A stretch of DNA of 64,000 nucleotides. Source: Aliivibrio fischeri ATCC 7744 = JCM 18803 = DSM 507. GTDB lineage: Bacteria > Pseudomonadota > Gammaproteobacteria > Enterobacterales > Vibrionaceae. The stretch is from NCBI RefSeq assembly GCF_023983475.1, contig NZ_CP092712.1, positions 1,860,001 to 1,924,000 of the forward strand. The letters are read 5' to 3'. The notes below the pieces were generated by a model. The model made no database searches. It saw nothing but the letters and a program-made list of their open reading frames with translations, and was not told the DNA's origin. This document shows, piece after piece, positions 44,864 to 49,061 of this stretch (position 1 is its first letter; every line of letters starts with the position of its first letter). The translations under genes were made by a program, and so were the position numbers.

Positions 44864-44954
44864 GGAGGGATGGCTGAGTGGTCGAAAGCACCGGTCTTGA
44901 AAACCGGCAAGGGTTAATAGCCCTTCTAGGGTTCAAATCCCTATCCCTCCGCCA
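44864..44954 (+). tRNA. tRNA-Ser(TGA), copy 1
   Basis: 91 nt with a long variable arm, anticodon loop CTTGAAA (TGA) and encoded CCA. The acceptor stem is GGAGGGA/TCCCTCC. Confidence 0.97.
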
Positions 44955-44992
44955 CTTTCGAGATTCAGATAGAGTCTGGGTTTCAAAAAATT

Positions 44993-45069
44993 GGAGCGGT
45001 AGTTCAGTTGGTTAGAATACCGGCCTGTCACGCCGGGGGTCGCGGGTTCGAGTCCCGTCCGCTCCGCCA
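44993..45069 (+). tRNA. tRNA-Asp(GTC), copy 1
   Basis: 77 nt with anticodon loop CTGTCAC (GTC), intact T arm and encoded CCA. Confidence 0.97.
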
Positions 45070-45077
45070 ATACAACG

Positions 45078-45107
45078 AAGGCATTGTCGAAAGACGATGC
45101 CTTTTTT
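45078..45107 (+). terminator. Terminator of tRNA array, unit 1
   Basis: The stem aaggcattgtc/gacgatgcctt (one G-T pair) with a gaaa loop is followed by tttttt. Four copies of this terminator occur between here and 47532. Confidence 0.88.
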
Positions 45108-45168
45108 GTATCTGTCGAAAATGAAAAAGCTTCCGAGACTCCAGATAGAGTCTGAGTTTCAAAAAATT

Positions 45169-45277
45169 AGAATGGTAGTTCAGTTGGTTAGGCTTTTTAT
45201 TGGAGAGCTTAGCGGCCTGACACGCCGAGGGTCGTGCTGCTCTCAAGGTGAGATAGAAAGTCCCGTCCGCTCCGCCA
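45169..45277 (+). pseudogene. Mosaic tRNA-Asp relic 1
   Basis: The 5' 22 nt (with two changes), the anticodon arm and the 3' tcccgtccgctccgcca match tRNA-Asp. Between them the D-arm and T-arm parts are replaced by ctttttattggagagctta and ctctcaaggtgagatagaaag, which are largely complementary to each other. The anticodon reads GAC instead of GTC. It cannot fold as a normal tRNA but could form one long hairpin. Confidence 0.8.
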
Positions 45278-45285
45278 ATACAACG

Positions 45286-45311
45286 AAGGCATTGTCGAAA
45301 GACGATGCCTT
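45286..45311 (+). terminator. Terminator copy interrupted by the IS110-family element
   Basis: The complete stem aaggcattgtc/gacgatgcctt is present, but the T tract is cut after two T; the remaining T run is found at 46636-46640 on the far side of the element. Confidence 0.75.
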
Positions 45312-45380
45312 AATTATATGGTCCGCCTCACTCTCAAACTCCTATGCTTAGAGTAGGCATGCAGAAATGAGGTGAACCAT

Positions 45381-46403
45381 ATGTCTTCCATCCAAATTTT
45401 AGGTATCGATTTAGGTAAACATAGCTTTCACGTGGTTGGTCATAACCACTTGGGAAAAGAAGTTTTACGGAAAAAATATAGTCGTAATCAATTAATCTCT
45501 TTTATTGCGAAGCTAGAACCAACAATAATTGCTTTTGAAGCATGTGGTGGCTCCCATTGGCTCGCTCGAAAATGCATAGACTTAGGCCATCAGGCCAAAC
45601 TTATCCCGCCTCAATATGTAAAACCTTATGTGAAAGGTAATAAAAATGACTTCATTGATGCGGCTGCGATAGCAGAAGCAGCAAGCCGACCATCTATGCG
45701 TTTTGTTGCGGTAAAAACAGAAGATGCACAAGTTATAGCAACCATTCATAGAATTAGAGATGGTTATATAAAAGAACGAACGGCATGTATGTCTAGAATT
45801 GGCGCCATTCTACTCGAATTTGGGCTGAGCCTGCCCAAAGGGCATGCGAAGATGAAAGCTCTTTTTCAATGGTTAGCAGAGCAAAATCAAGAATTACCCC
45901 CGAGTTTACTCAATGAGTTATGCAGTATTCATGAGCATTACTCTTATTTGAGCCAACAAATAAAGGAACAAGACATTAAGCTTCATGATATTTCTGAAAA
46001 TAATGAATTAGCTCGGTTATTAAAAACAATTCCTGGTATTGGAGATTTAACATCAACGCTTTGTATCGCTGATGTGAGTTCTTCAAATAACTTTGCAAAT
46101 GGTCGTAATATGGCAGCATGGCTAGGTCTTGTTCCTAGGCAGTTTTCGACAGGAGGTAAACCCAAGTTATTGGGTGTTAGTAAACGAGGAAATAAACAGC
46201 TTCGAACCTTATTTGTTCATGGTGCTAGAGCGGTGCTATCTAGACCTGACACCACAGGGAAAGTATTTGGTCAGTGGTTGGTCAATTTGAGGGCAACCAA
46301 GCCGTTTAATGTTGTAGTGGTAGCGCTTGCCAACAAGCTAGCAAGAATAGCTTGGGCGGTGTTACAACACCGCCAAGCTTTTAAGGCTGCAAAGCAGCCA
46401 TAA
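45381..46403 (+). CDS. IS110/IS1111-family transposase
   Basis: From the ATG at 45381 (Shine-Dalgarno gagg) the recombinase has 340 residues. The N-terminal RuvC-like DEDD domain shows GIDLGKHSFHVVG, AFEACGGSHWLARK and NDFIDAAAIAEAASRP. The C-terminal Transposase_20 domain shows TIPGIGDLTSTL and RQFSTGGKPKLLGVSKRG, with the expected nucleophilic serine region. The frame is intact. Members of this family are guided to targets by an RNA from the element's noncoding end. Confidence 0.95.
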   Translation: MSSIQILGIDLGKHSFHVVGHNHLGKEVLRKKYSRNQLISFIAKLEPTIIAFEACGGSHWLARKCIDLGHQAKLIPPQYVKPYVKGNKNDFIDAAAIAEAASRPSMRFVAVKTEDAQVIATIHRIRDGYIKERTACMSRIGAILLEFGLSLPKGHAKMKALFQWLAEQNQELPPSLLNELCSIHEHYSYLSQQIKEQDIKLHDISENNELARLLKTIPGIGDLTSTLCIADVSSSNNFANGRNMAAWLGLVPRQFSTGGKPKLLGVSKRGNKQLRTLFVHGARAVLSRPDTTGKVFGQWLVNLRATKPFNVVVVALANKLARIAWAVLQHRQAFKAAKQP

Positions 46404-46620
46404 CCGAGTTTGCAACGTCAATGAATGTGATGACAAAAACGGTCAATCGGCCAGATTAAAAACCTGATACAAAAAACAGCATAAAAATGCTTTCGGCTTT
46501 TTAAGGATAATCTGGCGCGGATATCATCGTGGAGCTGGTAAGCCATGGGCTCACCAAACGTGACTCCGAATACATTAGCGCAAACTAACTCCGTCATTAA
46601 TTAATTGTAGTTGCAATTAA
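46404..46620 (+). ncRNA. Candidate target-guide RNA (seekRNA/bridge RNA) of the IS110-family element
   Basis: A perfect outer stem ccagatta/taatctgg (46451-46458 with 46508-46515) encloses an internal loop capped by the hairpin agcat-aaaa-atgct (46478-46491). The loop's 5' strand holds gatacaaaaaa (46466-46476), exactly complementary to ttttttgtatc of the terminator target. A second hairpin tggtaagcc/gggctcacca (about 46532-46555) is followed by atacatta, which matches the joined element ends. No promoter was established. Confidence 0.55.
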
Positions 46621-46882
46621 GAGGCGGACCATACATTTTTGTATCTGTCAAAAATGAAAATACTTCCGAGCTCCAGATAAAGTATGGATTTCAAGTTTCT
46701 AAATAATTCTCCGATTCTTACCCACTCATTTCTAAAGACTGTAAATTAAAAATCGATCTACTATCTCTTCATATCCTTCATTGTACAACACAATAAAAAC
46801 AACGAACTTTGCATTGATTTGCTTTAAATGCCATCAAAATGAATAAATTTGAATCAAACGAATTTATTTTTAAAAAGAAGTC

Positions 46883-46921: not shown

Positions 46922-47012
46922 GGAGGGATGGCTGAGTGGTCGAAAGCACCGGTCTTGAAAACCGGCAAGGGTTAATAGCCCTTCTAGGGTTCAAATCCCT
47001 ATCCCTCCGCCA
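46922..47012 (+). tRNA. tRNA-Ser(TGA), copy 2
   Basis: 91 nt, identical to copy 1, with encoded CCA and anticodon TGA. Confidence 0.97.
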
Positions 47013-47050
47013 CTTTCGAGATTCAGATAGAGTCTGGGTTTCAAAAAATT

Positions 47051-47127
47051 GGAGCGGTAGTTCAGTTGGTTAGAATACCGGCCTGTCACGCCGGGGGTCG
47101 CGGGTTCGAGTCCCGTCCGCTCCGCCA
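47051..47127 (+). tRNA. tRNA-Asp(GTC), copy 2
   Basis: 77 nt, identical to copy 1, with encoded CCA and anticodon GTC. Confidence 0.97.
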
Positions 47128-47135
47128 CTACAACG

Positions 47136-47165
47136 AAGGCATTGTCGAAAGACGATGCCTTTTTT
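47136..47165 (+). terminator. Terminator of tRNA array, unit 2
   Basis: Same stem and T tract as 45078-45107. Confidence 0.88.
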
Positions 47166-47493: not shown

Positions 47494-47502
47494 AATACAA
47501 CG

Positions 47503-47532
47503 AAGGCATTGTCGAAAGACGATGCCTTTTTT
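47503..47532 (+). terminator. Terminator after tRNA-Asp relic 2
   Basis: Fourth copy of the array terminator, intact, with stem aaggcattgtc/gacgatgcctt and tttttt. Confidence 0.85.
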
Positions 47533-48584: not shown

Positions 48585-48675
48585 GGAGGGATGGCTGAGT
48601 GGTCGAAAGCACCGGTCTTGAAAACCGGCAAGGGTTAATAGCCCTTCTAGGGTTCAAATCCCTATCCCTCCGCCA
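48585..48675 (+). tRNA. tRNA-Ser(TGA), copy 3
   Basis: 91 nt, identical to copies 1 and 2, with encoded CCA. Confidence 0.97.
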
Positions 48676-48681
48676 CTTTCG

Positions 48682-48710
48682 AAGCCCTAGCAGAAATGCT
48701 GGGGCTTTTT
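48682..48710 (+). terminator. Terminator of tRNA-Ser copy 3
   Basis: The stem agccctagca/tgctggggct with a gaaa loop is followed by ttttt. Confidence 0.88.
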
Positions 48711-48931
48711 CGTATAAGCAAATAAAAATTGCTTTCCAAAAAATAAGCCTTAAAGCCCTTCTCTTTGTTGGTAACAACCAAAAAGCACTGCTTCTTATCT
48801 AGATACGTACTATTCAAATAATGACTAAAAGTCGATCTCTTATTTTTTGTTCAACATCAAATCAACCTTGCCTAACAATAAAGCGAAGTGTTCGATTTTA
48901 AAGCAAACGATGCGTAATTTAAAAAGAGTGC

Positions 48932-48960
48932 TTTACATGAAGGTAGGGAACGCCTATTAT
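48932..48960 (+). promoter_or_regulatory. Promoter of tRNA-Ser copy 4
   Basis: TTTACA (48932-48937), 17-bp spacer, TATTAT (48955-48960), discriminator catcgcg. Confidence 0.75.
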
Positions 48961-48970
48961 TCATCGCGTT

Positions 48971-49061
48971 GGAGGGATGGCTGAGTGGTCGAAAGCACCG
49001 GTCTTGAAAACCGGCAAGGGTTAATAGCCCTTCTAGGGTTCAAATCCCTATCCCTCCGCCA
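48971..49061 (+). tRNA. tRNA-Ser(TGA), copy 4
   Basis: 91 nt, identical to the other three copies, with encoded CCA. Confidence 0.97.

Follow-up and report, generated by a model that had tools for sequence, protein, structure and literature searches.

The noncoding tail of an insertion sequence in Aliivibrio fischeri ATCC 7744 very probably encodes the bispecific bridge RNA, or seekRNA, of an IS1111 transposase, with a guide that spells the ends of intrinsic terminators. The element lies in a stretch of 64,000 nucleotides of contig NZ_CP092712.1, hereafter the window; all coordinates are window positions on the forward (+) strand. An initial annotation of this DNA had read the tail as a guide RNA. 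The comparisons described below support that reading, and they identify the target as an intrinsic terminator, which the annotation had missed.

Comparison of the ends delimits an IS1111-type insertion sequence of 1325 bp (45311-46635, +). It begins with a 7-bp left terminal extension, TAATTAT (45311-45317), and a 12-bp left subterminal inverted repeat, ATGGTCCGCCTC (45318-45329). The single gene of the element (45372-46403) encodes a transposase of 343 aa from a GTG start, with alternative ATG starts just downstream of the GTG. Downstream of the gene lie about 220 noncoding bases, and the element closes with the 12-bp right subterminal inverted repeat GAGGCGGACCAT (46621-46632) and a 3-bp right terminal extension, ACA (46633-46635). 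The transposase domains are DEDD_Tnp_IS110 and Transposase_20 (PF01548, PF02371; Pfam), and the protein agrees in domains and length with IS1111 transposases, which are DEDD enzymes of about 330-350 aa. The repeats also agree with the type, in which they are subterminal and usually 11-13 bp long, as does the longer noncoding region 3' of tnp. Extensions of 7 bp and 3 bp are a stated rule for IS1111 elements in the accessible text of Siddiquee et al. (2024; PMC11187229).

In its minimum-energy structure (-61.1 kcal/mol, z -2.78; 2/200 shuffles fold as well), the tail forms two stem-loops. The first, at 46450-46516, is the predicted target-binding stem-loop of the guide RNA, as judged from folds and compensatory changes. 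Its 8-bp outer stem, GCCAGATT with AATCTGGC, is present as initially described but one base away from where it had been placed, 46450-46457 pairing with 46509-46516. The inner hairpin noted earlier (AGCAT with ATGCT, about 46478-46491) appears in the same fold. In the second stem-loop (46531-46567), GGAG at 46531-46534 pairs with CTCC at 46564-46567, the pairing conserved as helix 4.

This structure is conserved in an RNA alignment (A1) of 66 relatives, from which 4 of 70 rows (L146, L159, L143, and L129) were left out. Across the 21 named helix pairs, 94.2% of cells are paired, and both sides have changed in 16/21 pairs. When partners were shifted by 1-3 columns, pairing was 29.5-46.8%, a comparison that favours the real structure over the slid versions because the structure was drawn from the same sequences. 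Helix 1 (7 of 8 pairs counted) has both-side changes in 6/7 pairs and 98.3% of cells paired; for helix 4 the figures are 3/4 and 100%. Four of five structure measures were reached by 0/500 shuffles, and the remaining one, further pair types, was matched by 35/500. The weakest pair (35-57) is unpaired in 47/66 rows. No Rfam family matched the tail at gathering score.

The first loop holds two target-strand segments, with the top-strand match first, which is the IS1111 order for seekRNAs and bridge RNAs. Its 5' strand is the right, or top-strand, target guide GATACAAAAAA (46466-46476), complementary to T/TTTTTGTATC on the target top strand (the slash marks the insertion point). The 3' strand is the left, or bottom-strand, guide GGCTTTTT (46495-46502), which carries the letters of the left half in the target top strand, GGCT/TTTT. 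The window's genome contains three copies of the element, copy 1 being the one in the window. The initial annotation had found GATACAAAAAA complementary to all 11 nt of TTTTTTGTATC, and this holds at copies 1 and 2 (11/11), with 10/11 at copy 3. It had called the match of the left strand partial; copy 1 (GCCTTTTT) does have one mismatch, but the whole of GGCTTTTT is present at copies 2 and 3.

Relatives allowed us to follow guides and targets together. From 154 transposase matches we removed 21 with no recognisable repeat pair and 12 repeating another's flanks, leaving 121; for the RNA alignment, those below 45% identity, L077, and L044 were left out, leaving 97. Of these copies, 95 have both flanks, representing 92 distinct sites, and 91 have the 50-base left flank used in the hairpin test below. 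We then carried out a guide swap test (10000 permutations) in which each of the 53 distinct guide pairs found among the 92 distinct sites was represented by a single site; the ends were taken as 7-bp/3-bp, and 2 positions of slack were granted to the swapped controls too. The 53 guide pairs score 8.49/11 (first strand) and 7.55/9 (second strand) against their own targets, compared with means of 5.99 and 5.66 and maxima of 6.75 and 6.28 against swapped targets, kinship not being corrected for. In these sequences the guide-target match exceeds chance, and numerous changes have occurred, in guides whose letters differ widely, such as GTGGGGCGAAA with TTCGCCCC (L124), GTTGCCCCAAA with TTGGGGCAA (L105), and GATGTCAA with TTGACATC (L068). 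Covariation of loop and target, which the initial annotation had proposed as a check, is thus found across the relatives. For 40/53 guides, no more than two foreign targets outscore the guide's own; for 13/53 more than two do, partly owing to the resemblance among many targets. Scoring in a fixed register with 6-bp/4-bp ends was rejected; it understated some groups, and the 7-bp/3-bp ends with slack match better.

The guide strand is A-rich, and an A run pairs with any T run, as would be expected if the complementarity were low-complexity A/T coincidence and the tail an ordinary untranslated region. We give this next to no credence. Guides containing G+C match targets containing G+C (L124 and L105 above), the helices are conserved with compensatory changes, and the coincidence is already contradicted because the guide strands of relatives follow their targets.

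The three copies in the window's genome (G000) are equal at 1301/1301 core bases. On the left they are flanked by sequences ending in cgatgcct, gttgggct, and agggggct, and on the right by sequences starting with tttttgtatctg, tttttgtatctg, and tttttgtatata. Identical tails at unrelated sequences had been named at the outset as evidence against a guide. The surroundings of the three copies are indeed unrelated, but the guide-matched stretch is present at each, and it is all that they have in common. The three copies interrupt three different intrinsic terminators, each within the U-tract.

At copy 1, the hairpin of the interrupted terminator (45288-45309, -13.9 kcal/mol) is followed by one T of the U-tract, which stays left of the element at 45310; the remainder of the tract and the right target half, TTTTTGTATCT, stand at 46636-46646. 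Intact versions of this terminator lie nearby at 45077-45104, 47135-47162, and 47502-47529, and the window contains a paralogous empty site at 47154. Our terminator scan lists these three intact terminators and not the interrupted one, with a region total of 4 against a shuffle mean of 3.2. For copy 2, a genus-wide search found a clean orthologous empty site in a sister species (L195) with an equal right flank. Its T run is six long, against one plus five at the occupied site, and therefore nothing was duplicated. A second empty site for copy 2 (L201) has a nearly equal right flank. Insertion with no target duplication, as in other IS1111 elements, is thus seen at L195 for copy 2 and at the paralogous site for copy 1. 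Among 14 genomes of the genus, one per species, the element is confined to the window's own genome (E 1e-60 or better).

Genes for tRNA-Ser(tga) and tRNA-Asp(gtc) are repeated around copy 1 (44864-45069, 46922-47127, and 48585-49061), the first two pairs having similar surroundings. At about 45164-45280 lies a decayed copy of tRNA-Asp-like sequence that contains extra stretches and that ARAGORN does not call; its terminator is the one holding the element.

We next asked how often the sites of relatives are terminators, counting hairpins of -6 kcal/mol or better that close within two bases of the junction T-tract. Guides were called terminator-type (poly-U/poly-A) if strand 1 contained AAAA and strand 2 TTTT. 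Under this rule, which was set after the sites had been seen, takes in the doubtful L023 and L114, and leaves out the terminator-like L017 and L030, the 28 distinct terminator-type guide pairs have a hairpin at the junction in 48/58 distinct sites. For other guides the count is 6/33. The background is 18.7% of 1163 random flank positions and 31.6% of 152 positions before [GC]CTTTT in the flanks. Stems vary between sites, and the junction lies just inside the U-tract. The U-tract score has a median of 4.65 for empty and 2.43 for occupied sites and is lower when occupied in 48/48 sites, values that are suggestive only. Sorting by the second strand alone (75 versus 19 sites, with hairpins in 53 versus 2) was discarded as too loose because it took in guides like TTTCGTTTTGT and TTCACGCTTTT.

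In the window's genome as a whole, the motif GGCTTTTTTGTATC occurs within two mismatches at 231 sites, versus 32 for the reversed motif. Such a hairpin is present at 26/30 sampled sites; 28/30 have at most one mismatch, and four belong to a single, repeated tRNA-Asp terminator. Since the sampled sites are mostly at hairpins, the guide effectively acts as a terminator probe. The string TTTTTTGTATCT (a U-tract followed by GTATCT) occurs 21 times in the genome and its reverse once; such suffixes are common.

These sites could in principle be chosen by shape, with a transposase that recognises hairpin-plus-U-tract DNA and a tail whose complementarity is secondary. The differing stem sequences at the 48/58 hairpin sites would fit this, as would Coxiella IS1111, which is reported at stem-loop target sites in the accessible part of PMC2104537. 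We nevertheless consider it very unlikely: guide and target covary, no qualifying hairpin is present at 10/58 terminator-type sites, and relatives with other guides match those guides although 27/33 of their sites have no such hairpin. Given the 10/58, the hairpin itself is probably not required for insertion. One of these ten sites, L006, fits the second guide strand poorly (4/9).

It is also unlikely, in our view, that the location merely reflects survivorship, with looser insertion and the loss by selection of copies in genes. Only settled copies are visible, and terminators may well be harmless places to settle. However, the junction is fixed at one place in the U-tract, the flanking letters match the guide, and relatives with other guides are mostly away from terminators. 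The reading we prefer is that the guide specifies the site. It spells the 3' end of a terminator (the G+C-rich stem foot, the U-tract, and a suffix frequent in this genome), and the element therefore inserts inside U-tracts, close behind host genes, and reads in the direction of the upstream transcript.

The second loop matches the element's own ends, as is characteristic of seekRNAs and bridge RNAs, and contains two donor guides, one per end, that the initial annotation had missed as a pair. The predicted left-donor guide, ATATCATCG (46521-46529), is complementary to the left extension except at the third base from its end. The right-donor guide, ATACATTA (46570-46577), carries the letters of the right end, ATACA. 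This segment had been described as matching the joined right and left ends. The match to ATACA plus the next base stands; against ATACA/TAA, it is 7/8. Donor guides and ends change together: the right extension equals the guide in 95/97 copies (ACA 72, AGA 14, ATA 8, GTA 1), and the 2/97 exceptions have the extension AAA with the guide AGA. On the left, the last base of the extension tracks the first base of the guide in 65/66 rows (G-C 44, T-A 20, A-T 1); the third position counted from the end agrees with its guide base in only 28/66.

Joining the ends would also create a promoter-like sequence. TTGCAA at 46611-46616, a possible -35 box by match only, stands 17 bp before the hexamer formed by CA (46634-46635) and TAAT (45311-45314). 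When we compared 56 distinct junctions, the joined hexamer was NATAAT in 55/56 and TTGCAA was present at a spacer of 17 in 36/56; in 47/56, a hexamer with 4 or 5 of the 6 TTGACA letters stands 16-17 bases before the joined hexamer. The conservation of this match is suggestive of a circle-junction promoter. No promoter-like site was listed between 45311 and tnp, in a scan that found 6 in the region versus 6.0 in shuffles. A promoter across joined ends has been described for IS110 elements, including IS621, in the accessible text of Durrant et al. (2024; PMC11208160).

Terminator-type guides occur in two clades of a transposase tree of 76 sequences built by a quick method only, one holding the Vibrionaceae elements and the other the Pseudomonas elements. 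Transposases of the Pseudomonas clade are about 45-50% identical to that of the window element. Their guides spell other stem feet (GGGTTTTTT, CGGGTTTTT), and L019, L021, L022, and L025 are still at hairpins. The tree has nine changes of guide class, a number that depends on the class rule used. The distribution is consistent with a terminator habit that is either old or was taken up repeatedly.

Other relatives have other targets. L114 and L115 (G235) belong to the same family as the window element, with transposases 45% identical, but have a different target, which their guide GTAAAACGGAA matches; we take this site to be a Tn21-family terminal repeat, and the match serves as a test of the guide reading on the known target of IS4321/IS5075. 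Targets of roughly AAAC..GTT/TTGGGGCA are found for L069, L070, L074, L075, and L103-L106, and targets of roughly AACTCA(C/T)/TTNTGTCCA for L073, L076, L078, L080, L108-L111, and L125. Some of these repeated targets are conserved beyond the guide.

The RNA-guided mechanism, its RNA, and natural retargeting are already known from the two 2024 papers, which we cite here from their accessible parts. SeekRNAs were described for the IS1111 elements ISEc11, ISKpn4, ISPst6, and ISPa11 (Siddiquee et al. 2024). The window element resembles these in its noncoding region 3' of tnp, 7-bp/3-bp extensions, and subterminal inverted repeats; in a top-strand match that lies 5' of the bottom-strand match and overlaps with it; and in insertion without extra bases and natural retargeting. 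Like the bridge RNAs of IS110 and IS1111 elements, it has a target loop and a donor loop, with left and right guides in both, and an RNA in the right end of IS1111 elements had been predicted (Durrant et al. 2024). The order of its target guides is the reverse of that in IS110-type bridge RNAs (order per PMC11187229).

The target itself differs from those of both papers. The seekRNA elements use a short linear site, an attC end, or REP sequences (PMC11187229), and the known targets of the family otherwise include stem-loop sites (PMC2104537); here the target is the end of a terminator, which also distinguishes the element from the bridge RNA systems of PMC11208160. The accessible portions of PMC2104537, PMC9208149, and PMC5896051 do not describe terminators as a target, the first speaking of stem-loop sites. 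Nor did we find terminators as a guide-programmed target class in the open-access literature, where most subscription papers are absent. Intrinsic terminators are thus possibly a target class that has not been described so far.

Taken together, the comparisons suggest how the element may move. The tail (46404-46635) would encode a guide RNA as the partner of the IS1111 transposase. In this RNA, the first internal loop would pair with both strands of the target GGCT/TTTTTGTATC; the second would pair with the left and right ends of the element itself and hold them joined. The RNA-loaded transposase would excise the element as a circle and recombine the circle into the target with no duplication of bases, and a promoter across the joined ends would drive both tnp and the RNA. 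Expression of the RNA, its use by the transposase, circle formation, and the activity of the junction promoter are inferences from the sequences.

Insertion parts the hairpin from its U-tract, and read-through into tnp is therefore conceivable. One hypothesis, which we offer tentatively and think less likely than not, is that an RNA-guided IS1111 lineage spanning Vibrionaceae to Pseudomonas rewrites its guides yet keeps terminators as a safe, transcribed harbour, so that the element would act as a reversible read-through switch. Host transcripts would then extend into the transposase and the guide RNA, and excision would make the terminator whole again.

IS1111 elements thus offer a naturally occurring collection of guides, targets, and donor ends that change in concert. 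The findings suggest that an RNA guide need not be tied to one sequence but can be directed to a functional class of sites, intrinsic terminators. Because these sites are numerous and interrupting them is probably harmless, the guides look like natural safe-harbour programming, whose effect on host read-through is directly measurable.
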